Source: Verrucomicrobiota bacterium (GTDB lineage Bacteria > Verrucomicrobiota > Verrucomicrobiia > Limisphaerales > SIBE01). From it: a stretch of 45,772 bases of DNA. The stretch spans positions 1-45,772 of the forward strand of contig JAQBVM010000012.1 in the NCBI GenBank assembly GCA_027623095.1, given 5' to 3'. The position numbers and the translations under genes were made by a program. A model generated the notes under the pieces. That model worked only from the letters and a program-made list of their open reading frames with translations. It was not told the DNA's origin and made no database searches. Below, piece after piece: positions 13,840 through 45,211 of the stretch. Positions within the stretch are counted from its first letter, which is position 1; every line of letters begins with the position of its first letter.

Positions 13840-14207
13840 AAATAGGAGAGGCGTGATTCAAACGTTGGGCAAGAAAAAACCCCACCGTAATGCCGTGTGT
13901 AACAGTTCCTTTGAACGTGTGAGAAACAGGTGGAACCGGCTCGGTGGCTTTCGACTTCCAATCAAGGCCTGTCGGCCACCCCCAAAGCTTGGGTTCCTAT
14001 TCAACTTAGCTTACGGTTCAAGGACTTAGTTTCTTAACACGAGCATGGCAGGGTAAAACCAAATCTCATTCAGAATTCCAAAGAGCAACACACTCAAATT
14101 CGCACCCTCTCAACAATTCTTACTATGCGGCAACAACTCACCTGTCCTCAAGGAAAAAATTAAAGAGACATATGGAGAGGATTCTGAGAATTAAGAGGGG
14201 TTCACCG
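13840..14207. other. Divergent intergenic spacer, no gene recognised
   Basis: This spacer lies between rarA (minus) and the POT transporter (plus) and must hold the promoters of both. I found no convincing reading frame, strong hairpin or riboswitch. A T-rich run of six bases on the minus strand near 13870 has no preceding stem. Just before the transporter start, GAGGGG (14195-14200) lies 7 bases upstream of ATG 14208 and is the likely ribosome binding site. Confidence 0.5.
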
Positions 14208-20461: not shown

Positions 20462-21116
20462 ATGTTCACTCTCAATTGCATTTTACGGCAATCACACGTT
20501 TTTTCTCGGCAATCGCAGGAACTCGGAGCGAGCCGTGTTCCGAGCGTGTCAAGAATTCGGAAAGCATCGCAAAGAAAGGCCAAAACAACAGATCAAAGTT
20601 AAGCTCTTCAAATGCGCGCCCTACGGCAGCCTCCCCCAGAGCGACGGACGCGAATCAAGACCTTGAACCAATGATGGTGGGGCGACACTCTGTGGAGCTC
20701 TGATCTAACCTCGAAGGGATCAAACGGAAGAAGAATGTGCAATGGAAACAACGGGGAATCCGGAAGCCCCACGTTTCCAGATGCTCATTTATGCAGGCCG
20801 GATAATTCAAGAAGAAGTCAGGGCTTCACAGAGTGTCGCCCCACCTATATTTTGAACGGTTCATGGATCGTAGTACTCTACGAGCCGCGAGGCCGTTTCG
20901 GAATCCCGGACTCGCTCGGAGAAACGTGCGGACGGCTCCTATTTCTTGCGCACAGTGGACGTTCACGCACGCCAGCCTTCACCGCTCGAGCATTTTCGAA
21001 TTGCCCCCGGGCGAGGTCATTCCGATTTCCGTGGGACAAAAAACGATTCAACTTGCGAAATGCATCTCAGCGGCTAATCTTCCATCGTCAAAACGCAAAC
21101 TTAATCTGATCTTCTT
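20462..21116. other. Intergenic region with a structured repeat, no supported gene
   Basis: This 655-bp divergent spacer separates the DUF1080 gene and the PA14 gene. It holds one copy of the ~170-bp inverted-repeat element at 20676-20845. The remaining 270 bp up to the PA14 gene contain open frames with no recognisable domain or codon pattern and no start supported by a ribosome binding site. Promoters for both flanking genes should lie here, but I cannot place them. Confidence 0.5.
20676..20845. repeat. Structured inverted-repeat element, copy A (170 bp)
   Basis: The ends are inverted repeats: 20676-20700 starts GGTGGGGCGACACTCTGTGG, and the reverse complement of 20821-20845 is the same over 25 nt with two mismatches. 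An internal stem has GGAAAC at 20744-20749 and GTTTCC at 20773-20778. A second copy lies at 30551-30721. No target duplication is visible and there is no coding capacity. The two copies are strongly alike at both ends and in the core, so this is a dispersed family rather than a chance palindrome. Confidence 0.85.
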
Positions 21117-21140
21117 ATGAAATCCGATCTTCCTATGAAA
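21105..21140 (+). repeat. 18-bp tandem duplication spanning a start codon
   Basis: Two consecutive 18-bp units, TCTGATCTTCTTATGAAA (21105-21122) and TCCGATCTTCCTATGAAA (21123-21140), differ at two positions. Each contains an ATG in the same frame (21117 and 21135), so the PA14 gene has two nearly identical candidate starts. Neither has a good Shine-Dalgarno site. Confidence 0.8.
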
Positions 21141-23192
21141 ACTCTTCGGCTCTCTGCCGCTAAAAGCGTATTCTTCCTTTTGGCGGGTTTTGTTTCACTC
21201 ATTGTCTCCGCCACCGCGCAACCCACTGTTCTGTGGGAGGCTTACAACGATCACCGGCCATCCGAACTCACACATCCAAATGTCACAGGTTATGATTTGC
21301 GAGTCCTCGATGACGGCGGAACACTCGTCAATTTTAAAACTGGCACCCTGCTGAACGCCACGGTCTTTGTTATTTCGGAATCCTCTCCGGACGACTTTGG
21401 AGCGAACTCTCCTGTGAATGCGGGAAGTCCGGCGGATTTGCTGTTCAGCGGCAAAGTCGATATTGGAAACTCGGGTTTGCCAGGCTTGAGAAATAGCACC
21501 GACGTCAGCCTGGTGTTGTTGTTTGAGGGGCTTGATCCGACAAAACGATACAACTTCCGTGGAACAGTGAGCCGGGGCGGAGGTTACGTGGACCGGTGGG
21601 CCGTCTTCACACTCCTTGGCGCCGATGCGTTTGTTGATGCGCACGTCGATGGCAGCAACAATCAGAATATTTTTACCGAAACCACATTTGATGCCTCGAG
21701 TCTCGAACCCAATCAAGTCGCGCTAAACGGCGGCGACAACAAAGTCGGATCCCTCGTTGGATGGGACAATATTGAACCGGGACCAGACGGTTCGTTTGAA
21801 ATCGAAGCACGTCAATATGTGGGAAAGGCGCCCTTTGGCAATCCCGCGGGCGGACCTTACGGCTACGGTTTTAACGCGATTTATTTGGCGGAGATACAAT
21901 CGAGCGGCAACCTGCGCATCACGGAGAATCCCTCGAGCCAAATCATTCCGGCCGGGCAGACCGCCACACTTACAGTCGTGGCCTCGAGTCCTCAGTCTAT
22001 TCAGTATCAATGGCAAAAAGCGGCGCCGGGCAGCTCAACGTTTGCGAACATCGCCGGCGCGACTCAAGCGAGCTACACAACGCCGGCTCTCACGGTAGCG
22101 GATGACGGCAGCAAATTCCGCTCCTCTATTTCGAGCGGAGGCAACTCGACCATTAGCGGCGACGCGACCATTAATGTGGACGGCACAATTCCATCCATCA
22201 TCGCAGTTCGTGGCAGCATCAATTTCAACGCCGTGCATTTGGAGTTTTCGGAAGCCATTAAACTCAGCGCCTTGGCGAATACGGCCAACTACACGATCTC
22301 CGGCGGGTTAACAATCAATAGCGCCGTCGCGCAAAGCGCCACCAGCGTCCGGATTCTCACGAGCAAACAAAACCCGGGAGACCGCTATACGATCACGGTG
22401 AACAATCTGGACGACCTGGCAGGAAACAAAATTCCAGCCGGCACCTCCCGCGGTTTCACCGCGTTTACAGAACAACCCGGAGTCGTTGGTCTGGAAGTCT
22501 GGAACAACACGGCGGCCGGCAATACCAACCCGGACGCTCTGCAGACCGACGCGCGATATCCGGATTCACCGGACGAAGAGTACATCACGGCTACGTTTGA
22601 TTCGGGGCTGGCTTTTCCGAACGGTCCCAAGAACACCTACGGCGCTCGATTCCGAGGATGGCTCACCCCTGCCGAGACCGCCGACTACGAGTTTTTCATC
22701 CAAAGCGACGGCGGAAGTGAACTGCACGTTGGGGCGAGCGCGGATTTCACTCCACTCTATGACGTGGATCGGTTTCCGGACGCAATTGCGGTAACAGGCA
22801 GCCTTTTTCAAGAACCAGGATTCGACGAATCCGTTTCCTTCCCGATCAACCTCAAGGCCGGACAGAAATACGCCATTATGGCAATTTGGAAAGAAGACAA
22901 TGGCGCGGATTACTTTCAGTTAGCGTGGAAAAAGGCCAACGATTTTTCCCCGGCAGATCAACTCAAACCGATCCCGAGCCAATTCTTTTCCTTCTACGGC
23001 CCTGGTCCCGAACCGCTCGTAGAACCGAAAATTACGAAGATCACTCTGATCGGCGGCAAAGTGACAATTGAATGGACCGGCACTACGCTACAATCGTCCA
23101 GCGACTTGAAGAACTGGGCAGACGAAGCAGCAGCGGCAAGCCCGCTTTCGATCACACCCGCGGGCGCCAAATTCTATCGCGTTAAGAATTAG
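21117..23192 (+). CDS. Secreted multi-domain protein with PA14-like domain
   Basis: 691 residues, or 685 from the second ATG at 21135. A signal peptide (SVFFLLAGFVSLIVSATAQP) indicates export. The N-terminal 250 residues are a beta-rich region of unknown type. An Ig-like module follows at about 275-350 (QYQWQKAAPGSSTF). A cohesin- or Big-like segment is at about 355-450. A PA14-like domain is at about 465-625 (ARFRGWLTPAETADYEFFIQ, then SDGGSELHVG); PA14 folds bind carbohydrates. The last 50 residues (KVTIEWTGTTLQSSSDLKNW ... AKFYRVKN) match the C-terminal domain of the 1000-residue protein at 38023, perhaps a sorting or anchoring module. A hairpin at 23218-23247 follows the stop. A role in binding polymers at the cell surface is inferred. 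Confidence 0.88.
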   Translation: MKSDLPMKTLRLSAAKSVFFLLAGFVSLIVSATAQPTVLWEAYNDHRPSELTHPNVTGYDLRVLDDGGTLVNFKTGTLLNATVFVISESSPDDFGANSPVNAGSPADLLFSGKVDIGNSGLPGLRNSTDVSLVLLFEGLDPTKRYNFRGTVSRGGGYVDRWAVFTLLGADAFVDAHVDGSNNQNIFTETTFDASSLEPNQVALNGGDNKVGSLVGWDNIEPGPDGSFEIEARQYVGKAPFGNPAGGPYGYGFNAIYLAEIQSSGNLRITENPSSQIIPAGQTATLTVVASSPQSIQYQWQKAAPGSSTFANIAGATQASYTTPALTVADDGSKFRSSISSGGNSTISGDATINVDGTIPSIIAVRGSINFNAVHLEFSEAIKLSALANTANYTISGGLTINSAVAQSATSVRILTSKQNPGDRYTITVNNLDDLAGNKIPAGTSRGFTAFTEQPGVVGLEVWNNTAAGNTNPDALQTDARYPDSPDEEYITATFDSGLAFPNGPKNTYGARFRGWLTPAETADYEFFIQSDGGSELHVGASADFTPLYDVDRFPDAIAVTGSLFQEPGFDESVSFPINLKAGQKYAIMAIWKEDNGADYFQLAWKKANDFSPADQLKPIPSQFFSFYGPGPEPLVEPKITKITLIGGKVTIEWTGTTLQSSSDLKNWADEAAAASPLSITPAGAKFYRVKN

Positions 23193-23217
23193 CCGCTCGA
23201 GAACTCACCTTACAATC

Positions 23218-23247
23218 ACCGCTGCCGGGCAAGAGCTCGGCAGCGGT
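23218..23247. terminator. Hairpin after the PA14 gene, possible terminator
   Basis: A perfect 10-bp stem (ACCGCTGCCG / CGGCAGCGGT) with a 10-nt loop begins 26 bp after the stop codon at 23192. The following TCCTGTTGT is only weakly T-rich, so intrinsic termination may be partial. Its position between convergent genes (the DUF1552 gene ends at 23480) fits a shared 3' structure. Confidence 0.5.
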
Positions 23248-23308
23248 TCCTGTTGTGGCGCGAACCTCGGCCAAATTGAAACGTGAGACTGCCCGCTAGC
23301 GCCTTGGA

Positions 23309-23364
23309 CTCCGGTAACGACCGGAGCGATTCACCGCTTTGGCGTTGGCACGTTCCAACGCTCC
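23309..23364. repeat. REP-like nested palindromes
   Basis: Two adjacent hairpins: CTCCGGT/ACCGGAG with loop AACG (23309-23326), and GCGTTGG/CCAACGC with loop CACGTT (23342-23361). They are enclosed by a longer pairing of GGAGCG (23323-23328) with CGCTCC (23359-23364). The cluster sits between two convergent genes, the usual place for extragenic palindromes. There is no second copy in this window. Confidence 0.55.
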
Positions 23365-23479
23365 GGACTTCCCAACAACTTTGGCTTTACCGAAAAGCGG
23401 CAACTCCGCAGGCTCCGTTTCCGCACTCCAAAACCTGGCGGAAATTCCGAGGGCCTTATCTACCTAAACAGTCGCATGC

Positions 23480-24829
23480 CTATATTCCCGCCAACCGCGA
23501 TTCCGCATCACCAAAACGATCGAGCTGAACACCCATGCGGTCCATGATCGACAGGTACATGCTGCATAACTTCCGGTCGTCGTCGCTCTTGCCGGTGTAA
23601 TCGAGGACTCTGCCGGTTTCGAGTGTGCCGCCGAGTCCTCCGGCCAAGACGATCGGCAACTTGGTCGAATCGTGTTTACTCCCGGACCACATGTTCGAGA
23701 TGAACATCAGGCAACTGTTATCCAGAACAGTCCCCTCGCCTTCCGGCATCGCTTCCAACCGGCTTGCGAGATAAGCGAGCTGGCTGCAATAGTACCGCGC
23801 GATACGCTCATACGCGTCGGATCGATCATCGTGCGACGCGGGATGATGGGACGACCGCACATCAAGGAACGGGTAAAACAATCCGGAGATATCGCGGCAC
23901 AAAAGCAGGGTCGCCACTCGCGTCTTATCAGTTTGGAACGCAAGGGCAAGAATATCGCACATCAGGCGCATATGATCCCGGATGTCCTCCGGAAGGCCAT
24001 TATCCGGCCGTTCCATAGTGATGATGGGTTTGCCCCGATCCGCAGCGCGCGATTCCGCCTTTTCCTGAGCCAGACGCATCGAATCGATTCGTTTCTCAAC
24101 CTCCCGAACACTGGTCAAATACTCGTCGAGCTTGGCTTTATCTCCGGCGCTGACCTTTCGGCTCAAGCTAGATGCCTGCTCCTTGACGCGATCCAGGATG
24201 CTCTTGTTCCGCATGCTCCCGCGGTTCTCGAAGAGGCTATCGAAGGCCAGCGATGGGTAAACCTCCATCGGCACCGGCGAAGTGGCGCTTTGCCAGGAAA
24301 TGTAGGAGCTGTACGCCATCGAAAAATTCGTCTCGTGGTATCCGGTAATCGGCTGTTCGCATCCCAGCACCATGCTCGGCTGCACCGTATCTTTCCCGAT
24401 ATGATTCGCCAGCACTTGGTCCATGCTGATGCCTCCTTTCAGCTCCGCGCCCCTCTTGAGAGCCGCGCCGGACAGAATGTTTCCAGTTTGTCCGGGATGA
24501 ATGCCAACCCCCACGGCGCTGCGATTAAACAACCCGGTGACGAAATTCATTTTGGTCTTCAACGGCTCCATCGGCTCCAGGCTTTTGCCAAGCTCCATCT
24601 CCGCGCCGGAACCCTTCGCCCACCAATGATCCGAATTAATCCCGCACGCCATGAACAGGGTGGCAAAGCGTTTAGGAAACGGTCCGGGCACATCGCCGGT
24701 CACCGGCGTTGTGCCCCAAACAGGAATCGACTCAAGCCAAGGCAGCGCCATTGCCACGCCGGTGCCGCGAATAAACGCGCGGCGGGTAAGATTGTTCGAA
24801 CTCGGACGATCAGAGGGCTGTTGGCTCAT
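23480..24829 (-). CDS. DUF1552 protein, Tat-exported
   Basis: 449 residues. The N-terminus has a Tat signal (LTRRAFIRGTGVAMALPWLE). DUF1552 landmarks include GPFPKRFATLFMACGINSDH, NFVTGLFNRSAVGVGIHPGQ, SMDQVLANHIGKDT and a histidine-rich segment RSSHHPASHDDRSD. A strong ribosome site (AGGAGA) lies 5 bases before ATG 24829. It starts 31 bp after the DUF1592 cytochrome gene on the same strand, the standard pairing in Planctomycetes and Verrucomicrobia. The biochemical role is unknown. DUF1552 and DUF1501 proteins are related to alkaline-phosphatase-like or sulfatase-like folds and are thought to work with the partner cytochrome in the periplasm. A long open frame on the opposite strand of this gene is a codon-composition shadow. 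Confidence 0.92.
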   Translation of the reverse strand: MSQQPSDRPSSNNLTRRAFIRGTGVAMALPWLESIPVWGTTPVTGDVPGPFPKRFATLFMACGINSDHWWAKGSGAEMELGKSLEPMEPLKTKMNFVTGLFNRSAVGVGIHPGQTGNILSGAALKRGAELKGGISMDQVLANHIGKDTVQPSMVLGCEQPITGYHETNFSMAYSSYISWQSATSPVPMEVYPSLAFDSLFENRGSMRNKSILDRVKEQASSLSRKVSAGDKAKLDEYLTSVREVEKRIDSMRLAQEKAESRAADRGKPIITMERPDNGLPEDIRDHMRLMCDILALAFQTDKTRVATLLLCRDISGLFYPFLDVRSSHHPASHDDRSDAYERIARYYCSQLAYLASRLEAMPEGEGTVLDNSCLMFISNMWSGSKHDSTKLPIVLAGGLGGTLETGRVLDYTGKSDDDRKLCSMYLSIMDRMGVQLDRFGDAESRLAGI

Positions 24830-24860
24830 GGGATTCTCCTAAACAGGGTTGCACTTCCAT

Positions 24861-27800
24861 TTATTGTTCCGTGGAAACAGGGCGGCTGCGCCGGTTGAGA
24901 AACTGGGGACTTGTAATGATGCACTCGATCAGGGTGCTGAAGCGGTATCCGCTCGCGGTCAATTTCGAATGCATGGCGGCAATTGTTAAATCATCTGAAA
25001 GAATGAGGTTGCGACCGAGGCCATAGGCTAACATCTTCCGGCATAAATTGTCCACAAACTCCTTTTGCCTCCGTTCTTTGAGGTAACGGCGCAATCCTTC
25101 GAGTCCCTGCCCTTCGCCGTCATCCGGGAAAGCCGCCCGAGTTTCCACAGGACGCCCGCCTAAATCAAGACTCCGGCGCTCTCCGATCGGTCCGTAACCT
25201 TCAAAGACCAATCCCATCGCATCGAAACGCTCGTGGCAACCGGCGCAAGCCTTGTCCGCACGATGGCGGGCCAATGCCTCACGCAGTGTGAGATCCCCCA
25301 ACTTCGCCTCATCGTTTGGAAGTTCCGGAACATTGGGCGGTGGCGGAGGAATGCGCTCACCCAATAAGCGGCGCACCACCCAATACCCGCGCTTGACCGG
25401 ACTCGTCCGAAGGCCTGGAGCATTCTTTGTCAGAAAAACCGCCATCGGCAGCAATCCCCCCCGTTCGAATCGATCCGCATCATCAATTCGCGTCCACACT
25501 TCAGGCGATCCCTCGACGCTTGGGATTTCATAATGTTTCGCCAGCACCGGATTCACAAAGGTGTGGGTGGCGTAAAGGAACTCCAAGACCGAACGATCCG
25601 ATTGCACCAGGTCGAGAAAGAAACGCACGGGTTCTTCGAACATCGCCTCGCGCAATTCATTGTCAAAGGACGGAAACCTCCCGCGATCCACGGCGTTGTG
25701 TTCCTCAAACCGCCGGAAATCCAGCCAGTTGCCTCCAAACTCCGTTGCCAGGCCCCGAACGCGCGGATCCCGGAGCATGCGATTCGCCTGCGCCATGAGC
25801 ACATCCGGGCGATGCAACGCGCCATCGGCAGCGGACTCGATCAGCGCTGCATCGGGCATGCTCGACCAAAGAAAATAACTCAGCCGGCTGGCCAGAGCGT
25901 AATCACTCAACGATTCCACACGAACGTTCGCAGGCTGAATCAGCCCCCCGCCCCCACCCGCTTCGCCTTCGGTTCCGGCGTTGACCAATCGCACGAGCCC
26001 GGAACCGCGATTCAGATTGTCACTCGAACCAACCCGATCGACGCGCGCCACGGCATCGCGGGAACCTCCGCCGTTAAGGCCGAATAGGTCAATTCGGTAA
26101 CAAAAATGGGGCGACATCAAGATGCTGACAATCGTGTCCCGCATGGCTGACTCGTGATCCAATTCGGACTCACGGCGCAATGACTGGTAGAACTCCAGAA
26201 TCGAAACTCGTTCAGCCCCGTTCAATGGACGGCGATACGCCCTTTCCGCGAAGGCAAGCAGGGCGTTCAATTGAATCGGTTCGGCGGCTAATCGCTCGCC
26301 TTCCACGCGCCGGACATTCGTGTTGACGTTTTGGAAATGTTCCTCGATTGCGGATACAGCGATTTCACTCGCTCCATTTTCCCTTACCTTTGCCAAATAA
26401 ACCGTGGCTAATTGGTGAATCTTCGCTTCGGATGTCGAATCCTTGTCTTCCGACCGCGCGAAATGAAACTCCGGGCTCATCATAAACCGAGAGTCCGAAC
26501 GTTCGAACCAGATAAAACTGGTATGCATGCGCATGGGAACCGAGCTGATAAAATGAAACTCGTCCCACAACCGGTCCAACTCACGTTTTTGCGCGTCGTC
26601 CAACATCAATTGGCAGAGCGGTTCGTCATCTCGGAAATAACCCGTCATACTGTGAAACCCGGCGCTCAACAATCGCCCGCCAAGAGCCTTTTCCTTTTCC
26701 GGATCAAGATATACCCGGGCCCGTTCCGAAACGTAGAACGCATCAGGAAAAACCGCACAAAATCGGCCAAAACCGGCTTCATACCGCTTGCGCTCCGATT
26801 CATCATCGGGAATCGCAAGTGCTTCGCCAACGCCCGCAGGAATCGATTTCGTTCCAACTCTCAACAGCCCCTTATCTTTTTTCTGAGCGGTCGGGAGCCG
26901 GCTGGATAATGGCTTTCTCTTCCCCGGTCTAACGTCCAATCCGGGCTCTTCCGCCACATTACCCCTCGCAAGCTGTCCCGAACCAGCTTCGTGCCCCGGG
27001 CGATCCGCGGCATCGATCGAATCGATTAGGGAACCAGACTCTCCAACCGCCTCAATACTCCAATGGAAATCCAAAACACCGCCTGCGTATCGCATTCGAT
27101 TTGCCGCAAACTGTCGATCCTTCCATAGCACCAAAGGTTGAGACCCCGAATGAACGCGCGGCGCCTGCAGATTCTCGACTTCCGGAACAAGCGCCGCCCG
27201 AAGCTGAACGATCAAATCCCGAATTCGCGCACAGTGTTCCCATACGGAATCGTCCGATTCGATCCCGGGCTCTGGCAATGCCCGCCACAGTACTTGCAGC
27301 GCGGCGATCGGCCCGGTTTTCTCTTCCGTTTTCGCCAGCAAAGACCAAACGGTCTCCAAATACTTCGGACTGATTTGCGCGTGTTTCGCCACTTCGTCCA
27401 GTGTGGCCTCCGGCATAGCCAATCGCGCTCGATGTTCGTATCTCCAAGCCGCAAATAGATACTCCGCATAATCCGTCGCTTGGCGTTGGTAGAAATCAAT
27501 AATGCGTTGAACGCAGTATTTGTCGCGGTCGGTCTCCGCAACCACCGGATGCGGGGCAAACACAATCCCGTCCGGTTTCAAAATCAGGAACTCGGAAACA
27601 CGCCGCGCCGCTTCCAGATATTTTTTCAAAAGCGCGGGCGACATCACGAGCGAATCCGCGGAGTTGTCAAATCCGGCTTCATTCGCCGGGTCCACCGGAA
27701 ACTCCCGCGTCGGGTGAATATCCACGCCCGTCAAGTCACGAATGGTGTAATCATACTCCGCCGTGCTAAGCCGCCGAACCGGGACGGAACCAGGATCACC

Positions 27801-28178
27801 CGCATTTTTCTTGGCCTCATTTTGCCGAACCGTGCGAATCCAGCTCACGACCTCGGCCCGTTGCCCGGAGGCCGGATGGTGCTCCGCCTTTTCCGGCGGC
27901 ATTTCCTCGGCCACCAGTTTTTCCAGCACGAGTTCCCAATGCCCGAAGCCCTCCACAACCGATTGCATAGATTTGTAGGAGCTGATGTCAAATTGCGCTT
28001 TCGGTTTCTCGCCTTGATGACAACCGACGCAGTAGCCCTCAACAAACGGACGGACGGTTTCCGCAAACCTCCGGTCCAATTCCAACTCTAAAGAATCGCC
28101 CGCGCTCGATGACCATGTAGCACCCACCAGGCAAACCAACACGGTTCGCACAAATAAGGATCGAAACGAAGAAAACAT
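24861..28178 (-). CDS. Planctomycete-type cytochrome with DUF1587/1595/1592/1588/1585 domains
   Basis: A large secreted c-type cytochrome of 1105 residues from ATG 28178 (an upstream in-frame start at 28250 would precede the signal peptide). A signal peptide covers about residues 5-26. The first heme motif CVGCH is at residues 50-54 (PSCyt1). A DUF1587-like segment (RRLSTAEYDYTIRDLTGVDI) is at about 130-200. A long middle region (about 200-635) matches nothing I recognise. DUF1595 is at about 636-700 (AFAERAYRRPLNGAERVS), DUF1592 at about 750-880 (RLSYFLWSSMPDAAL), DUF1588 at about 890-1000 with a second motif CAGCH, and DUF1585 at the C-terminus (MLAYGLGRNLILSDDLTI). It likely shares a transcript with the DUF1552 gene. 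Such proteins are longer than most relatives, because of the middle insert. The electron donor is unknown. Confidence 0.92.
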   Translation of the reverse strand: MFSSFRSLFVRTVLVCLVGATWSSSAGDSLELELDRRFAETVRPFVEGYCVGCHQGEKPKAQFDISSYKSMQSVVEGFGHWELVLEKLVAEEMPPEKAEHHPASGQRAEVVSWIRTVRQNEAKKNAGDPGSVPVRRLSTAEYDYTIRDLTGVDIHPTREFPVDPANEAGFDNSADSLVMSPALLKKYLEAARRVSEFLILKPDGIVFAPHPVVAETDRDKYCVQRIIDFYQRQATDYAEYLFAAWRYEHRARLAMPEATLDEVAKHAQISPKYLETVWSLLAKTEEKTGPIAALQVLWRALPEPGIESDDSVWEHCARIRDLIVQLRAALVPEVENLQAPRVHSGSQPLVLWKDRQFAANRMRYAGGVLDFHWSIEAVGESGSLIDSIDAADRPGHEAGSGQLARGNVAEEPGLDVRPGKRKPLSSRLPTAQKKDKGLLRVGTKSIPAGVGEALAIPDDESERKRYEAGFGRFCAVFPDAFYVSERARVYLDPEKEKALGGRLLSAGFHSMTGYFRDDEPLCQLMLDDAQKRELDRLWDEFHFISSVPMRMHTSFIWFERSDSRFMMSPEFHFARSEDKDSTSEAKIHQLATVYLAKVRENGASEIAVSAIEEHFQNVNTNVRRVEGERLAAEPIQLNALLAFAERAYRRPLNGAERVSILEFYQSLRRESELDHESAMRDTIVSILMSPHFCYRIDLFGLNGGGSRDAVARVDRVGSSDNLNRGSGLVRLVNAGTEGEAGGGGGLIQPANVRVESLSDYALASRLSYFLWSSMPDAALIESAADGALHRPDVLMAQANRMLRDPRVRGLATEFGGNWLDFRRFEEHNAVDRGRFPSFDNELREAMFEEPVRFFLDLVQSDRSVLEFLYATHTFVNPVLAKHYEIPSVEGSPEVWTRIDDADRFERGGLLPMAVFLTKNAPGLRTSPVKRGYWVVRRLLGERIPPPPPNVPELPNDEAKLGDLTLREALARHRADKACAGCHERFDAMGLVFEGYGPIGERRSLDLGGRPVETRAAFPDDGEGQGLEGLRRYLKERRQKEFVDNLCRKMLAYGLGRNLILSDDLTIAAMHSKLTASGYRFSTLIECIITSPQFLNRRSRPVSTEQ

Positions 28179-28242
28179 GGGCTTAGTGACTTGCACCACT
28201 AAGCCACCATCGGCTTTCTGATTCAATTGAAAAAGAAGGTAG

Positions 28243-28467
28243 AAATACATCGGAGAAATCGCCCAAACAAAGAATTCTCATTTCGGCGATCCGTGGGCTC
28301 GCGCTTGTGGACCAAGAGACTTCGGAATCGAGGAGCCTTTGCTGTATCGCACAATCAACAACAAACTGGACCGGCCGGGACGGAGTCTGGCGCGCTTGGC
28401 TCAGGTCGTGGCGGAAGTCGAGGGGGTTCAAGCGGTGGCGCGAAACCTTGGCTTGCCCGTCAGATGA
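28243..28467 (+). other. Open stretch resembling a gene remnant, no start codon
   Basis: Between the 5' end of the cytochrome gene and the 3' end of the Hsp70-like gene, one plus-strand frame is open from after TAG 28240-28242 to TGA 28465-28467 (74 codons). It reads like protein, with FGIEEPLLYRTINNKLDRPG and LARLAQVVAEVEGVQAVARN among its stretches, but has no ATG, GTG or TTG in its first half. It faintly recalls helix-turn-helix antitoxin sequences. A decayed fragment is the best guess. The rest of the 28179-28586 gap shows nothing clear. Confidence 0.25.
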
Positions 28468-28586
28468 AACCTGAAGGTTCCATCTCGTCGGAGTTATTCG
28501 CAGTGAACGAACAAAAACGCAAGCTGGCGCATGGAGCGGCCGAATTTTGACCCACAACATCATCGCGGAAGAACGGGAAAAGTTTT

Positions 28587-30215
28587 TCAAGTCAGCTTAA
28601 CCAGCGGCATCTCGCGAAACAGAACTGTGCCGGTTTTCAGATCGCGAGCGGTGATCAGGAGCCGCTTATTGGCGTCGATTCCAAACTCAACGGCAAACCG
28701 GGGATCTCCCTGTTGCGCGGGAGGATTCGCCGTCAGGAATGTTGGGCTCTGCTCATTTATCCAGAAATGTTGCCGGCGGTCTCCTTCGTCCGCGGAAAGT
28801 TGGACCAATCGCGCCGCCCCGGATGGATCGAACACGAGCTCCATAGAACCTCCGCACCGATTCATTCGGTGGCTGATTTCATAGATCGCGATTCCAAGCT
28901 CGATTTGACCGGGATACGACGCCTTGACTGTCATTCGCGCGACCGCCTCCCGGCTCGGATACGGAGTGCCCCGATTAACAATGATCCGGTAGTCATAATC
29001 ACCTTTCTGAGGATTTACCCATCGAATCGCATAGTCATGCTGAATATGATCATAGAAATCGACTCCCGCCACAAATGCCGCCGCGCCTCGCGATACAGCG
29101 TCCATGGGATGATCCAGCCGAACAAGATCGCGCCCAAATATTCTCTCCAAAGTCTTCTGCACGCTTGGAATTAAACTCCCCCCACCCACCATCAGGACGG
29201 CGGAAATGTTGTCCTCCGAATAACCGCGTTCATGCGCGGCGTTGAGTGCCCGGCGAACGGTACCGTCGATCTGGCTGAACATCTCGTGCTGATCGAGCAG
29301 ATCCTCGAAAGACGCCCTCGTAAACTCCGCACTCAGAAGTCTTCCGTTTTCCGGATCTTCGAAGCCGACTTCCTCACGTTCGTGCGACGACAATCGTTCC
29401 TTTGCCGAGCGGCAGTCGTCCAAGAGTTTTCTGGTGATCGGGCGAATGGCTTCATCGGTATCCCGGCGATTATGTCTTTTCAGAACCTCTTGCATTAACC
29501 ATCCATCAATGCTGCTCCCGCCCAACTCACGGCCCGCTTTCCCAAGCACCCGGCAGCGCCGCCCGGCATCGGAAGAATCTTTCTCTTCGATCAGAACGAT
29601 CGATACGTCGAGTGTGCCCCCGCCAAAATCGAATACCAGATACACACTGCCAGGCTGCACATGAACGCCGTATCCCAAAGCTGCCGCGGACGGTTCGTCG
29701 ATCAGCCGAAACCGGGAAAACCCGGCACTTTCGGTCACCCCGGACAACCAGTCCGAATAATGCTCGAACGCTTCCACAGGAACCGTCAACGCCACTTCTT
29801 CTTTTTCAAGTTCCGGCTCCCGGAGCGAAAACAGAAGCACAGACGAAAGAAAGTCTTTTCCCGCATCGTAATATGAAATCTGGCGTTTCCCGATCAGCCG
29901 TGAGACGGGGCTGCGATTCGCGATGTAACGCTTCATCAGGCTAAACGTCCCTTTCGAGCAACTGAGTCCCTTCTCGATCACTTGGGCGCCGATCCATCGT
30001 TTTCCATCCGCCGCATAATGTATCATCGACGGAATAACCGACATAACGGACAATCCCGGCTGGGCAATGCCCTCCGTAGAATCCACCATCGCGGCGCTCT
30101 GCCCAAAGTCAGGGATGTGCAAGGGAACACCCTCTTGCCGCGCTTCATCCCACGCGGCGATGACTGTATTCGACGCTCCGAAATCAATTCCCAATCTTCC
30201 CGCCATATTTGTCAT
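28587..30215 (-). CDS. Hsp70-family (DnaK-like) protein
   Basis: An actin-fold ATPase of the Hsp70 superfamily, 542 residues from ATG 30215 (in-frame ATGs at 30275 and 30206 are alternatives). Phosphate-1 motif LGIDFGASNTVIA, phosphate-2 motif VYLVFDFGGGTLDVSIVLIE, and adenosine motif AVLMVGGGSLIPSV are all present, with the typical LIDEPSAAALGYG. The substrate-binding part (after about residue 370) is short and divergent, and no lid domain or C-terminal EEVD-like tail is seen. This is not housekeeping DnaK; no dnaJ or grpE lies nearby. Divergent Hsp70s of this kind occur in several copies in Planctomycetes and Verrucomicrobia, with unknown clients. The 3' neighbour is a non-coding gap. The upstream side carries repeat copy B. 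Confidence 0.9.
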   Translation of the reverse strand: MTNMAGRLGIDFGASNTVIAAWDEARQEGVPLHIPDFGQSAAMVDSTEGIAQPGLSVMSVIPSMIHYAADGKRWIGAQVIEKGLSCSKGTFSLMKRYIANRSPVSRLIGKRQISYYDAGKDFLSSVLLFSLREPELEKEEVALTVPVEAFEHYSDWLSGVTESAGFSRFRLIDEPSAAALGYGVHVQPGSVYLVFDFGGGTLDVSIVLIEEKDSSDAGRRCRVLGKAGRELGGSSIDGWLMQEVLKRHNRRDTDEAIRPITRKLLDDCRSAKERLSSHEREEVGFEDPENGRLLSAEFTRASFEDLLDQHEMFSQIDGTVRRALNAAHERGYSEDNISAVLMVGGGSLIPSVQKTLERIFGRDLVRLDHPMDAVSRGAAAFVAGVDFYDHIQHDYAIRWVNPQKGDYDYRIIVNRGTPYPSREAVARMTVKASYPGQIELGIAIYEISHRMNRCGGSMELVFDPSGAARLVQLSADEGDRRQHFWINEQSPTFLTANPPAQQGDPRFAVEFGIDANKRLLITARDLKTGTVLFREMPLVKLT

Positions 30216-30275
30216 CAACCGCTTTTCCGTTAGGCTCAGCCGCTCGCTCTGGCGGAAGATACGACAGGGATGCAT

Positions 30276-30894
30276 TCGAGTTCAAGGCATCTCGGGAAAC
30301 TTGAGAGAATGATTGTCCAGCATCTTGGCGAAATTTTCCGCGAGCCAGGAGGAAATCACGCGCGAGCGGGCAGATGGACGCAATCCCGAAGTTACGTGGA
30401 TCCTCTGAGTGCATCTGAATGAGGACACGCCTGAACCGCTTCTTTTTCACCGGATCGAAGAGAAGAGCGCGGAGGCTGGTGATCCTACAAGAGCTATTAA
30501 GGATGAACGGTGCAACTGGTAAGATTCGAGTTTCACCCCCCTTGCGGTCCGGTGGGGCAACACTCCGTGGAGCCCTAATCAACCTTGCGGCGAAAAACCC
30601 GAACGAGAAGGCACAATGGAAACACCGAGACATCCAGGCAATCCGGCGTTTCCACAGCTCCGATTTGCAAGACACCCGTCCCACAAGGAGAAGTCAGGGC
30701 TTCACGGAGTGTCGCCCCACCAAGAGAAACGAGAGTCGGCGCGTCCTTCCCTGCCGAAGTGCGGAGGGTGGGCCTGTCCTCATTCCGAGCGCCCGTTCGG
30801 CAGAAGTTTCACGTTTTGAGTTTGCTGAATTCCCGAATTTCGGATAACACACAGGCGGTTCAAAGAATTCTGCACTTAGACCGGCGCATCTCAT
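30276..30894. other. Divergent intergenic region containing repeat copy B
   Basis: 619 bp between the Hsp70-like gene (minus) and the alpha/beta hydrolase (plus). The main content is the ~170-bp repeat at 30551-30721. An open minus-strand frame spanning about 30184-30684 runs straight through the repeat and overlaps the Hsp70 gene, so it is not credible as a gene. No promoter could be assigned with confidence. Confidence 0.5.
30551..30721. repeat. Structured inverted-repeat element, copy B (171 bp)
   Basis: The same family as 20676-20845. The left end starts GGTGGGGCAACACTCCGTGG and the right end finishes TTCACGGAGTGTCGCCCCAC followed by C. The internal stem is GGAAAC (30618-30623) with GTTTCC (30648-30653). 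Relative to copy A, base 16 of the left arm changes T to C and its partner changes A to G, keeping the pair. No target duplication is visible. It lies 173 bp upstream of the hydrolase start. Confidence 0.85.
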
Positions 30895-31620
30895 ATGTTT
30901 GGAACAATCAGAAACACTCAAAGCGAAAAACTGGAATACAGCTTTCACGAAGGCAAAAGCGGATCGAAGAGGCTCGTGGTCATCGGACACGGCGTAACCG
31001 GGAACAAAGATCGACCCTTCATCGCTGCTCTTGCTGAAGGACTCGCGAAGGATGGCATTCATGCTCTCAGAGTCTCATTCTCAGGGAATGGCGGTTCAGA
31101 GGGCGAATTTCGCGAGTCAACAATCTCCAAGGAAGTAAACGATCTGGGAGCTGTTCTCGACGCTTTAAAGGACTACGATGTCTGCTACGCGGGTCACAGC
31201 ATGGGCGGCGCGGTGGGCGTGCTGCGCGCCGCTTCGGACGTTCGAATTCGTTGGTTGATCTCGCTGGCCGGCATGGTTCACACCAAAGACTTCGCCGACC
31301 GTGAGTTTGGCGCGGTGAAGCCCGATGCCGGATTCATGTGGGATGACCCGTCATGCCCACTTTCTCAGGCTTACATGGATGACATGGCGACGATCGGGTC
31401 CGTTGTGGAATTGGCTCCGAAGATTCAAGTGCCGTGGCTCTTGGTTCACGGGTCCGAAGATGACGTCGTTCCCATTCAGGATTCTCTGGATATCCAAAAG
31501 AACGCGAACAGTAATGTTGAACTAGTAGAAATCAAAGGCGCCAGCCATGTTTTTGCAGAGGGTTCAACCGTGATTCTGATCGAGAAAGTCGTTCAGTGGG
31601 TAAAACGTCTCTGCGTTTGA
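30895..31620 (+). CDS. Alpha/beta hydrolase
   Basis: A 241-residue serine hydrolase of the alpha/beta fold, probably an esterase or acyl hydrolase in the cytoplasm, since no signal peptide is seen. The nucleophile elbow is GHSMGG with Ser102. The oxyanion-hole region is VIGHGVTGNKDRPF (about 29-42). The acid is Asp189 in VHGSEDDVVP, and the base is His218 in GASHVF. Length and order match the family. The substrate cannot be predicted. It is preceded by repeat copy B and ends 51 bp before the convergent fusion gene at 31672. Confidence 0.92.
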   Translation: MFGTIRNTQSEKLEYSFHEGKSGSKRLVVIGHGVTGNKDRPFIAALAEGLAKDGIHALRVSFSGNGGSEGEFRESTISKEVNDLGAVLDALKDYDVCYAGHSMGGAVGVLRAASDVRIRWLISLAGMVHTKDFADREFGAVKPDAGFMWDDPSCPLSQAYMDDMATIGSVVELAPKIQVPWLLVHGSEDDVVPIQDSLDIQKNANSNVELVEIKGASHVFAEGSTVILIEKVVQWVKRLCV

Positions 31621-42018: not shown

Positions 42019-43386
42019 TCACGTTAATTCCCGAATGGGCTGAATCCCGGAATCAACGAGATACTGCGGTCGTCCTTGAATGTCTTCAACCGTTGCCGTC
42101 CTTACATCCACTCCAACGTTCTGGTAGAGCGTCGCGAAGATTTCTTGGAATTTTACCGGTCGCTCCGCGATGTCTCCACCCGTGCGGTCGGTGGCGCCGA
42201 TCACCTGCCCTGTTCGCATCCCACCGCCCGCAAGCACCGCGAAATTCGCGCGCGGCCAATGGTCACGGCTGTTCAAGTGGTTAAGTTTTGGGGTTCGCCC
42301 AAACTCTCCCCACATGACGACGGAAACGTCTTTGTCCAAACCACGCTCATGCAAATCCGTGATCAGCGCGGACAAGCCCTGATCCAACAGCGGAAATTCC
42401 TCCCGAGAACGCGGAAAATTCATTCCGTCACCTCCGTGCCAGTCCCATCGACTATAGTTCAGCGAAACGACGCGCGCACCCGCTTCGACAAGACGGCGAG
42501 CAAGCAAAAAATTCCGGATCATTTTCGGAGCGCCGTCTCGTTGGTAGCGCGGATCGTTCTGACCGTAACGTTCCAGAATATTTGGATCCTCTTTAGTAAG
42601 ATCAAGCGCATCCACCATTCCGCTGCCAGATAGAATACCGAGAGCCTGTTGATTAAATGTGTCCAGCCCCTTCATCACACCGGTCACATCGGCATCCCTT
42701 CTGAAGCGGTCGAACGACTTGCGGAGACGTTCGCGATCACTAAGACGTTCCAGAGTGATCGCCTCCAAAGTCATGTTCCGCGCCTTCGCATTCGGGTCTT
42801 TCTCCACGAGATTCATCGGACTGTGGGCCGGACCTGTGAACCCGCCGTCGCCCGCTTCGCCCCAAGTGCGATTCCCTGTGGGATACATCAATGCGACATT
42901 TGCGGGAATTCCGGGATTCGCGCCTTGAATTTTCGAAACCCAAGATCCAAGCATCGGCCAGCCGCCTTGCGGAGCACGGTCTCTCCGCGTGTGCCCGGTC
43001 ATGCACTGAAAACAGTCATGAGCCCCGTCCGAATCCGCAATCGAGCGAATAATGGCAAATTTATCGGCAATCTTCGCCAAACGCGGAAAGTGCTCGCAGA
43101 TTTCGATTCCGGAAACATTTGTCCGCACAGGCTTGAATTCACCCCGGTATTCGGAGGGCGCCTCCGGCTTGAGGTCGAACATGTCCAGATGGGAGGGCCC
43201 ACCCGGCAAATAGATATTGATGATGGCTTTGTGAGATCGACCTGTTCCTGCTTTTGCCTCCGCAGAGAGCAGTTGCGAGAGAGACAGGCCTCCAGCGGCC
43301 ATCCCTCCGATTTTCAAGAAATGCCGGCGTGAAATACCATCGCAGTGGTTCGCACGCTGATCGGACTGACCTAGAATCGTTAGCAT
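42019..43386 (-). CDS. DUF1501 protein, Tat-exported, without adjacent cytochrome
   Basis: 455 residues. A Tat signal is present (SRRHFLKIGGMAAGGLSLSQ). DUF1501 landmarks are IINIYLPGGPSHLDMFDLKP, AIIRSIADSDGAHDCFQCMT, NYSRWDWHGGDGMNFPR and VVMWGEFGRTPKLN, then SRDHWPRANFAVLAGGG. It is of the second DUF1501 subtype (ending DIQGRPQYLVDSGIQPIREL), distinct from the protein at 36475. GGAG lies 9 bases before ATG 43386. Such genes normally follow a DUF1549/DUF1553 cytochrome gene. Here the upstream region is a 289-bp hairpin-bearing spacer and the downstream region holds only remnants, so its partner appears lost or located elsewhere. Confidence 0.93.
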   Translation of the reverse strand: MLTILGQSDQRANHCDGISRRHFLKIGGMAAGGLSLSQLLSAEAKAGTGRSHKAIINIYLPGGPSHLDMFDLKPEAPSEYRGEFKPVRTNVSGIEICEHFPRLAKIADKFAIIRSIADSDGAHDCFQCMTGHTRRDRAPQGGWPMLGSWVSKIQGANPGIPANVALMYPTGNRTWGEAGDGGFTGPAHSPMNLVEKDPNAKARNMTLEAITLERLSDRERLRKSFDRFRRDADVTGVMKGLDTFNQQALGILSGSGMVDALDLTKEDPNILERYGQNDPRYQRDGAPKMIRNFLLARRLVEAGARVVSLNYSRWDWHGGDGMNFPRSREEFPLLDQGLSALITDLHERGLDKDVSVVMWGEFGRTPKLNHLNSRDHWPRANFAVLAGGGMRTGQVIGATDRTGGDIAERPVKFQEIFATLYQNVGVDVRTATVEDIQGRPQYLVDSGIQPIRELT

Positions 43387-43439: not shown

Positions 43440-43484
43440 ATCCAACCATCAAAATTCCAAGAGAATTTTGATGGTTGGATTTTT
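43440..43484 (+). terminator. Perfect 18-bp hairpin followed by T run
   Basis: The arms ATCCAACCATCAAAATTC (43440-43457) and GAATTTTGATGGTTGGAT (43463-43480) pair without mismatch around a 5-nt loop, and the right arm runs into TTTTT. This has the form of a plus-strand terminator, but no plus-strand gene lies upstream. It is in the divergent spacer between the DUF1501 gene and the GH10-like gene. It could end a small RNA or antisense transcript, or be a repeat. Confidence 0.55.
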
Positions 43485-43591: not shown

Positions 43592-43635
43592 GTCTTTCAT
43601 ACTGTTGTCGCGCCTGCGAAAACAGTATGAAAGAC
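43592..43635. promoter_or_regulatory. 15-bp inverted repeat, possible operator
   Basis: GTCTTTCATACTGTT (43592-43606) and AACAGTATGAAAGAC (43621-43635) form a perfect inverted repeat with a 14-nt spacer, 40 bp upstream of the GH10-like gene start. Size, symmetry and position fit a dimeric regulator site, but no cognate regulator is visible. A shorter palindrome, CTGTG ACAGA CACAG, lies just downstream at about 43650. Confidence 0.45.
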
Positions 43636-43675
43636 TGTCGAGCGTAGTTCTGTGACAGACACAGTCAGCGGAGTA

Positions 43676-45211
43676 ATGATGATGAAGAAAGCGAAAACAC
43701 TTCAATCCGGCGTCTTAGGCGTGCTGATGGTGGCACTCCAAAGTGCATGGTGCGCTACTCTAGACCAGCCGCCGCCGCCACTCCGCGAGTTTCGTGGCGC
43801 TTGGATTGCGACCGTCTCCAACATTGATTGGCCTTCCAAACCAGGGCTCACGAGTGCGCAACAACAGACAGAGCTCATTGCGATTCTCGACACAGCCGCA
43901 AGACTCAAACTGAACGCTCTTTTCCTGCAGGTCCGCCCGGCATGCGACGCGCTTTATCAATCGAAAATTGAGCCGTGGTCCGAGTATCTGACCGGAGAGC
44001 AGAATTCCCCCCCGAATCCATATTACGATCCACTCGAATTCGCGGTCACGCAGGCGCATCGTCGGGGATTGGAACTGCACGCTTGGTTCAACCCTTTTCG
44101 GGCACGACAATCTTCAGCCAAGTCCGCCCCTTCAGCCAGCCACGTAAGCCGGCGCTACCCAAAACTGGTCAAAGCGTATGGTTCCTACCTATGGCTCGAT
44201 CCCGGGGAGCCCCTTGCACAGGATTACTCGACGGCGGTGATTCTGGATGTTGTCAGACGATACGACATTGATGGCGTCCACCTTGATGACTACTTCTATC
44301 CCTATCAAAAAACGAACACATTGGGCCAGGCAATCGATTTCCCCGATGAGTCTAGCTGGCAGCAGTTCAAGGCAAGCGGCGGAAGCTTAAGCCGAAGCGA
44401 TTGGAGACGAAGGAACGTGGACGAGTTTGTTCGGAAACTTTATCTCCGCATCAAAGAGGAGAAGCGTTGGGTCAAGTTTGGCATCAGTCCTTTTGGGATC
44501 TGGCGACCCGGTTATCCGCCGCAAATCGTTGGCCTTGATGCCTACGCTGAAATCTTCGCTGATTCGAGAAAATGGATGCTAAACGGCTGGGCCGATTACT
44601 TCTCTCCTCAACTCTACTGGCCTGTGGCGTCGAAGAAACAGAGCTTCCAGGCGCTATTGGATTGGTGGGCGGACCAGAATAGCAAGCAGCGGCATCTGTG
44701 GCCGGGGATGAGGTCCGAGAAAGTCGGAAAGGACTGGACTGCCTCGGAAATCACCGACCAGGTTCAAAGAACCAGAAAACAAACCGGCGCATCGGGCCAT
44801 GTGCATTGGAACGTCTCCGCCTTGATGACCCCATCCCGCGAACTGAATGCGGCATTGCTCAAGGATGCTTACGTAGGACCGGCTCTCGTTCCGGCCTCTC
44901 CGTGGCTCGACAACAAACCTCCAGCAAAACCGAAAGCTTATTTCGAGAAAAACCAAGACTCGGACACTACAACCCTTCACTGGGAAAATGGCGGTCGCGA
45001 GTCGGTCTGGTTATGGATCCTCCAAACCAAAGTTCACAATCGCTGGTCCACAGAGATCCTTCCAGGCGCAAGAAGCGCTCAAATTTTCGGGGGGAACAGC
45101 AGGCACGCTTCACCGGAACAGATCGCGATTTCCGCAGTCGATCGGTGCGGGAATATGGGACCGACAGAAACCCTCAATAACGCGCCCCCAAAGCGCCGAG
45201 GAACGAACTAA
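43676..45211 (+). CDS. GH10-like glycosylhydrolase (DUF187/YngK type), secreted
   Basis: 511 residues from ATG 43676, which heads a run of three ATG codons after a GGAG site; GTG 43652 would add eight residues. A signal peptide covers about residues 4-27 (GVLGVLMVALQSAWCA). The catalytic TIM barrel (about 35-385) starts with REFRGAWIATVSNIDWPS and contains LNALFLQVRPACDALY, GLELHAWFNPFRA and the DGVHLDDYFYPY strand with acidic residues. The C-terminal about 100 residues form a beta domain. The family acts on polysaccharides or peptidoglycan-like substrates; specificity is not readable here. It is preceded by an inverted repeat that may control it. Confidence 0.9.
   Translation: MMMKKAKTLQSGVLGVLMVALQSAWCATLDQPPPPLREFRGAWIATVSNIDWPSKPGLTSAQQQTELIAILDTAARLKLNALFLQVRPACDALYQSKIEPWSEYLTGEQNSPPNPYYDPLEFAVTQAHRRGLELHAWFNPFRARQSSAKSAPSASHVSRRYPKLVKAYGSYLWLDPGEPLAQDYSTAVILDVVRRYDIDGVHLDDYFYPYQKTNTLGQAIDFPDESSWQQFKASGGSLSRSDWRRRNVDEFVRKLYLRIKEEKRWVKFGISPFGIWRPGYPPQIVGLDAYAEIFADSRKWMLNGWADYFSPQLYWPVASKKQSFQALLDWWADQNSKQRHLWPGMRSEKVGKDWTASEITDQVQRTRKQTGASGHVHWNVSALMTPSRELNAALLKDAYVGPALVPASPWLDNKPPAKPKAYFEKNQDSDTTTLHWENGGRESVWLWILQTKVHNRWSTEILPGARSAQIFGGNSRHASPEQIAISAVDRCGNMGPTETLNNAPPKRRGTN

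Follow-up and report, generated by a model that had tools for sequence, protein, structure and literature searches.

We analysed a window of 45,772 nt from a Verrucomicrobiota bacterium (assembly GCA_027623095.1, contig JAQBVM010000012.1), which contains two copies, A and B, of a structured repeat of about 170 bp. It is highly probable that these repeats are REP doublets forming hairpins (REPINs), that is, inverted doublets of repetitive extragenic palindromic (REP) sequences with GTGG or GTAG heads, mobilised by a putative Y1/HUH transposase, and that they constitute a new REPIN family of an already known kind of mobile DNA. The repeats have the features of REPs (a GT(A/G)G head next to a GC-rich imperfect palindrome, many extragenic copies and compensatory changes in the stem) and those of REPINs (mostly inverted doublets with the heads outside, and a spacer that is foldable and variable in sequence); they leave no target duplication, covary within each arm and are patchily distributed. 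The family would add REPINs to the Verrucomicrobiota, a phylum in which REPs have barely been described.

Arm hairpins and the preserved structure

The first-pass annotation of this DNA reported two copies with 25-bp terminal inverted repeats, and both copies are present where it placed them (Table 1). The inverted arms exist, but they are 28 bp long and each is a REP hairpin of its own (GGT GGGGC GA CAC TCY GTG GA GCCCT GA), in which a G-GTGG/GTAG head is followed by a GGGC/GCCC stem, an internal loop of tandem GA and a second stem of 3 bp capped by a TCY triloop, with the general form GGTGGGGC-GA-CAC-TCY-GTG-GA-GCCCTGA. The head is GTGG in the window's own genome (G000, a soil Verrucomicrobia genome of 7.4 Mb in 561 contigs; G-numbers denote the genomes compared) and GTAG in G047 (arm GGTAGGGCGAGACTCCGTCGAGCCC). 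Published REPs likewise have a GT(A/G)G head adjoining an imperfect palindrome (PMC2817692), which identifies the 170-bp element, with the same head and a palindromic arm, as an inverted REP doublet whose heads lie outside. Neighbouring arms are arranged with heads outside in 133 cases, against 7 with heads inside and 6 in tandem, counts in which overlapping loci are incompletely de-duplicated.

Within the window the arm pattern matches four times, against none across 100 shuffles, and the two 28-nt arms of copy A are 93% complementary. The annotated internal GGAAAC/GTTTCC stem is found in both copies as TGGAAAC/GTTTCCA; it is 93.6% paired with weak covariation support, and the element as a whole has a very stable predicted fold. 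Spacers diverge in sequence between copies, and doublets also occur at 77-80 bp in G000, at 73-75 bp in G076 and G105 and in forms of about 130-170 bp in different genomes. DNA folding returned the expected hairpin at the same energy for both arms of copy B and the right arm of copy A; the left arm of copy A, slightly decayed, folded less stably (Table 1). These energies are moderately better than those of shuffles (z of about -1.3 to -1.75), and the case for the arm hairpin therefore rests on covariation and not on energy.

Covariation was assessed in an alignment of 54 copies, each of about 170 bp, and in a set of 151 distinct doublets from several genomes. The earlier claim that a covarying base pair joins the two arms started from arm base 16, which does differ between the copies (T-A in copy A, C-G in copy B). 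Across the 54 copies, however, this pair is UA in 19, CG in 14, CA in 14 and UG in 7 (Fisher p = 0.10), so that it is broken in 14 and a wobble in 7. The pair is thus not maintained, and its bases lie in the arm triloops. Excess covariation does appear in the larger alignment, within the arms rather than at the proposed inter-arm pair: intra-arm structure is 96.7% paired, and changes on both sides involve 5 pairs and 14 cells, compared to shuffled means of 0.9 and 1.0, a level that 0 of 500 shuffles reach. When the stem triplets were left free in the search, the 3-bp stems of G000 arms were CAC/GTG, GAC/GTC, CAG/CTG and TAC/GTA, with 145 of 158 arms self-complementary, and GAG/CTC and GGC/GCC stems were found in other genomes.

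The two arms of a doublet are identical and self-complementary in 105 of the 151 doublets, and in 32 self-pairing has been lost through changes in either arm or in both. A further 14 are heterodimers, whose unlike arms are each self-complementary while arm-to-arm pairing is broken; as copies are related by descent these may represent fewer events, yet they include five combinations in several genomes. Identical arms that are not self-complementary occur in none of the 151. With 14 heterodimers self-paired and no identical but unpaired arms, we conclude that compensation is kept within arms. The small arm hairpins are thus favoured over the long arm-to-arm stem as the preserved structure. Bertels and Rainey set a long hairpin against a 'clover' in which each REP folds into its own hairpin, and suggested that the latter is recognised by an IS200-like enzyme (PMC3116915). 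The verrucomicrobial heterodimers favour the clover, the fold to be expected if a single-strand (HUH/Y1) transposase uses the element as substrate, over one long RNA or cruciform stem, and they bear on the open question of whether selection in REPINs acts on the long inter-REP stem or on the small hairpin of each REP.

Copy number, insertion sites and distribution

Searching both strands of G000 for GGTGGGGCGACACTCYGTG with up to 3 mismatches gave 203 forward and 193 reverse matches, where the reversed pattern, used as control, gave 7 and 2; this corresponds to roughly 200 elements, so that the window copies are far from being the only two in their genome. Copy B alone as query scored 40 near-complete places, and several G000 contigs end within the repeat, as expected of a repeat that breaks assemblies. 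Copies are extragenic: of 52 situated in loci of 6 kb or more, only 6 fall within open reading frames (ORFs) of 200 codons or longer, whereas 66% of random windows do, and their gene contexts are codirectional (18), divergent (14) and convergent (8). Copies A and B stand between divergent large ORFs, so that each has a plus-strand ORF downstream (21117-23192 and 30895-31620, respectively), as had been annotated. The annotated lack of a target duplication holds over 79 copies, in which the sharing of flanking k-mers shows no excess over shuffles for k = 5-11 and no duplication of 7 nt or more was found. For the two window copies, ordinary insertion without a demonstrated host function is the most likely account.

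A 14-base core of the arm was sought in 116 genomes of the order and found in 20, few of which hold many copies, with controls of 0 or 1. Core sites number 198 in G000, 93 in G047, 88 in G076, 48 in G105, 24 in G110 and 20 in G089, compared to none in G001, which belongs to the same genus as G000; G004 and G005, from the same family as G000 but outside that draw, contain copies. Outside the order, none of 240 genomes from the phylum contained the headed core. Among the matches listed from a second collection, the titles are verrucomicrobial apart from one titled 'bacterium', and some species names may be submitters' labels. This patchy distribution within one order fits mobile DNA. Four REP arms were also seen on three contigs catalogued as viral in IMG/VR (L357-L359), which could reflect prophage carriage or mis-binned host DNA.

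Mobilisation and alternative explanations

The earlier guess of an element resembling REPs or bacterial interspersed mosaic elements (BIMEs), replicated by a structure-recognising transposase, fits as to class; the base pair offered in its support fails, and a mobiliser of the RAYT (REP-associated tyrosine transposase) type is inferred by analogy. A Y1/HUH transposase of this kind would bind the hairpins of both arms while the DNA is single-stranded (on the lagging strand), cleave near the GTGG head and insert the doublet at a new place, leaving no target duplication. The spacer (170 bp) and the GGAAAC/GTTTCC stem within it would be carried along as passenger DNA, probably constrained mainly in length and folding. 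The transposase is putative, as are current mobility and any host function, whereas the high copy number, extragenic position, heads-outside doublets, covariation within arms, lack of target duplication and patchy distribution were observed. All eight repeat-rich genomes examined (G000, G004, G005, G047, G076, G089, G105 and G110) contain genes for Y1 transposases of the RAYT type (PF01797), with 29 matches in G000, 23 in G004, 25 in G005 and 3 to 11 in each of the other five.

Several observations weigh against a REPIN moved in this way. Among about 88 listed PF01797 loci of the eight genomes, with arms sought within about 1.5 kb, no intact RAYT gene has a REP of this family at both ends. The sole close association seen is in G005, where a REPIN doublet precedes a RAYT-like Y1 transposase of 315 aa (L153:345-1292) by about 55 bp; in G000, decayed RAYT fragments abut half elements. 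Both arrangements could arise by chance. No empty sites were recovered in relatives because synteny with them is lost, the flanking genes lying on unrelated contigs. In addition, the 170-bp doublets exceed the typical REPIN length, and pairing between the arms, too, is above its shuffled level, as two near-identical inverted arms must give. REPtrons, RAYT genes flanked by their cognate REP, are known to be missing or deleted elsewhere too (PMC3733652), and with no adjacent transposase in eight repeat-rich genomes, what moves orphan REPINs becomes a testable question.

Two candidates for an autonomous element were rejected. Of the RAYT fragments joined to half elements, which resembled the terminal parts of such an element, one derives by internal deletion from a RAYT whose intact relative is without such an end, and the sole wide arm pair examined as a possible transposon (L307) holds ordinary genes and not a transposase.

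It is improbable that the repeats are miniature inverted-repeat transposable elements (MITEs), non-autonomous derivatives of a DDE insertion sequence whose 25-28 bp terminal inverted repeats are read as double-stranded DNA, as in Correia elements. Their long terminal inverted repeats, steady length of about 170 bp, deletion-like 77-80 bp forms and high copy number would suit such an origin, but target duplications of any length are absent over the 79 copies, and the arms keep their own hairpins by compensation even when they are unlike, for which a duplex-binding transposase has no need; the ordinary genes in the wider-spaced pair L307 also count against it. Selection on a transcribed long stem, acting for example as an mRNA stabiliser, terminator or small RNA, would account for the very stable full fold, the conserved central stem and the positions upstream of genes. 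The first-pass annotation had offered this level of selection (RNA or cruciform) as one of its alternatives, which we now regard as very unlikely: the long stem is what the heterodimers break, and support for an RNA was not found, with no strand preference (GT versus AC mismatches, 12 versus 8), copies in all three gene contexts and no Rfam family matching copy A or B. Finally, host-maintained chromosomal sites for supercoiling, the nucleoid or gyrase/IHF-type binding, spread by selection and not by transposition, might be expected to be extragenic and conserved as these copies are, and REPs elsewhere are known to bind host proteins (PMC2817692); this explanation is nevertheless hardly credible given 198 sites in G000 against none in a genome of the same genus, the divergence of spacers among copies and the nesting of copies in other repeats.

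A literature search with the arm sequence returned only unrelated matches. BIMEs of Enterobacteria are mosaics of inverted REPs and other motifs, and the elements described here are also inverted-REP mosaics, but with one flanking palindrome common to several unrelated palindrome families. Correia elements (CREE/NEMIS) of Neisseria have 25-28 bp terminal inverted repeats, short internally deleted forms and a TA duplication; the verrucomicrobial repeats resemble them in length, terminal inverted repeats and short forms, but have self-complementary arm hairpins and no TA duplication. With the REPINs of Pseudomonas fluorescens SBW25 (Bertels and Rainey 2011, PMC3116915) they share inverted REP doublets, conserved ends, a variable spacer, an extragenic location, hundreds of copies and predicted single-stranded DNA hairpins. 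They differ in a usually longer spacer (in the 170-bp element, compared to 71 bp between the 16-mers of GI doublets), in the tandem GA internal loop of the REP core and in that no adjoining cognate RAYT was found here. The GTAG superfamily of REPs (Di Nocera et al. 2013, PMC3733652) is similar in that heads-outside dimers dominate most families, compensatory stem variants define subfamilies and some families lie within larger palindromes, and most GTAG-20 elements of Opitutus terrae have the head mutated to GTGG. The present family might coincide with one of O. terrae GTAG-17/19/20. It departs from the superfamily in its long structured spacers and in having no match beyond one order among the genomes tested.

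Flanking palindromes and other features

Table 1. Positions of the two REPIN copies, their parts and the enclosing repeats in the window
Feature	Position	Strand	Remarks
Composite A: CCATGAACC/GGTTCATGG flanking palindrome with REPIN A	20645..20867	+	limits approximate; whole stretch recurs in many G000 copies
Flanking palindrome, left arm, CGAATCAAGACCTTGAACC	20651..20669	+	3 mismatches to CGAATCGGGACCATGAACC; about 100 genome matches, control 0
REPIN copy A	20676..20845	+	170 bp
Left REP, copy A	20676..20703	+	slightly decayed hairpin, GCTC instead of GCCC; single-stranded DNA fold -1.6 kcal/mol
TGGAAAC, central stem 5' side, copy A	20743..20749	+	
GTTTCCA, central stem 3' side, copy A	20773..20779	+	
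Right REP, copy A, inverted	20818..20845	-	fold ....((((..(((...)))..))))..., -5.1 kcal/mol
Flanking palindrome, right arm, GGTTCATGG	20858..20866	+	
Composite B: conserved repeat of about 385 bp (limits approximate), REPIN B at centre	30411..30795	+	
Outer inverted repeat, left, composite B, TCTGAATGAGGACA	30414..30427	+	
REPIN copy B	30551..30721	+	171 bp
Left REP, copy B	30551..30578	+	-5.1 kcal/mol
TGGAAAC, central stem 5' side, copy B	30617..30623	+	
GTTTCCA, central stem 3' side, copy B	30648..30654	+	
Right REP, copy B, inverted	30694..30721	-	-5.1 kcal/mol
Outer inverted repeat, right, composite B, TGTCCTCATTCCGA	30775..30788	+	

Many other G000 copies are, like copy A, enclosed by CCATGAACC and GGTTCATGG, and the doublets of G105 and G076 are placed precisely at the tip of this palindrome. 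In G000 the slot between the two arms holds at least six unrelated palindromic families, the REPIN, GTAGTCCCGCC, GTAGCGCCGAT, GGGAGGGTGAGGCTCC, CCCAGCCCCTCC and TGGACAGTTTTCTGTCGCA, as assigned by a loose classifier (5 mismatches) for which many rows scored as 'other' are chance matches and the classified rows are sound by eye. One flanking palindrome, CATGAACCTGGTTGGTTCATGG, is nearly empty (C25). The occupation of one palindrome slot by several unrelated families is unusual, although REPs nested in palindromes have precedent: REP dimers within longer palindromes are described for A. variabilis, T. roseum and H. neapolitanus by Di Nocera et al. (PMC3733652). The flanking palindromes suggest that the preferred targets are hairpin tips. 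We propose only tentatively, and with more doubt than confidence, that the CCATGAACC/GGTTCATGG palindrome might be a general landing pad at whose apex several single-strand elements insert, building cassette-like arrays. On many G000 contigs (L170-L189), CCATGAACC/GGTTCATGG units are often in tandem, 76-160 bp apart, each with a different palindromic repeat, in such cassette-like arrays.

Other repeats adjoin or interrupt REPIN copies. The repeat GGCAGCGTCTTGGACTGCGGTGACG...CACCGCTTTC lies next to or within copies at L055:1759 and 16966, L064:189 and L114:10711, and CAGATGCCATGAAGAAGCTGGCAGGCATCGTGACTCAAAGACACACTGCC, probably the end of another mobile element, abuts copies at like junctions, mostly by contig ends (L030, L059:10127, L106:13048 and L112:14600). 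An insert of about 60 nt, GCTTTTCGCGAAGCGAA...GGGAAGCCAG, occupies the tip of the REP hairpin at L125:2427, L129:12475, L134:2473 and L064:18630, and a different, 44-nt hairpin is inserted at the same point at L051:10202 and L064:189. The G000 sample loci also contain a sister REP class, GGGT-GA-GGC/GAC-TC..-GCC/GTC-GA-ACCC, which shares the tandem GA layout and forms about 23 perfect hairpins in 0.75 Mb of this genome. A GTGG-headed inverted doublet of another class, GGTGGGGTGGCGTTGCCGCGCCGCCC..GGGCTGCGCAGCAGCACAGCCCAACC, lies on the minus strand at about 1444-1533 of the window (first arm 1478-1503), just downstream of a CCATGAACC arm, and a similarly arranged relative is found in L052 near 9622.

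Elsewhere in the window, a full-length 6S RNA (Rfam RF00013, 68.6 bits) was detected on the minus strand at 13875-14057. Two strong palindromes, with perfect 18-nt arms at 43440-43480 and 20-nt arms (95%) at 43592-43635, lie between the ORFs 42019-43386 (minus strand) and 43652-45211 (plus strand) and are possibly terminators.

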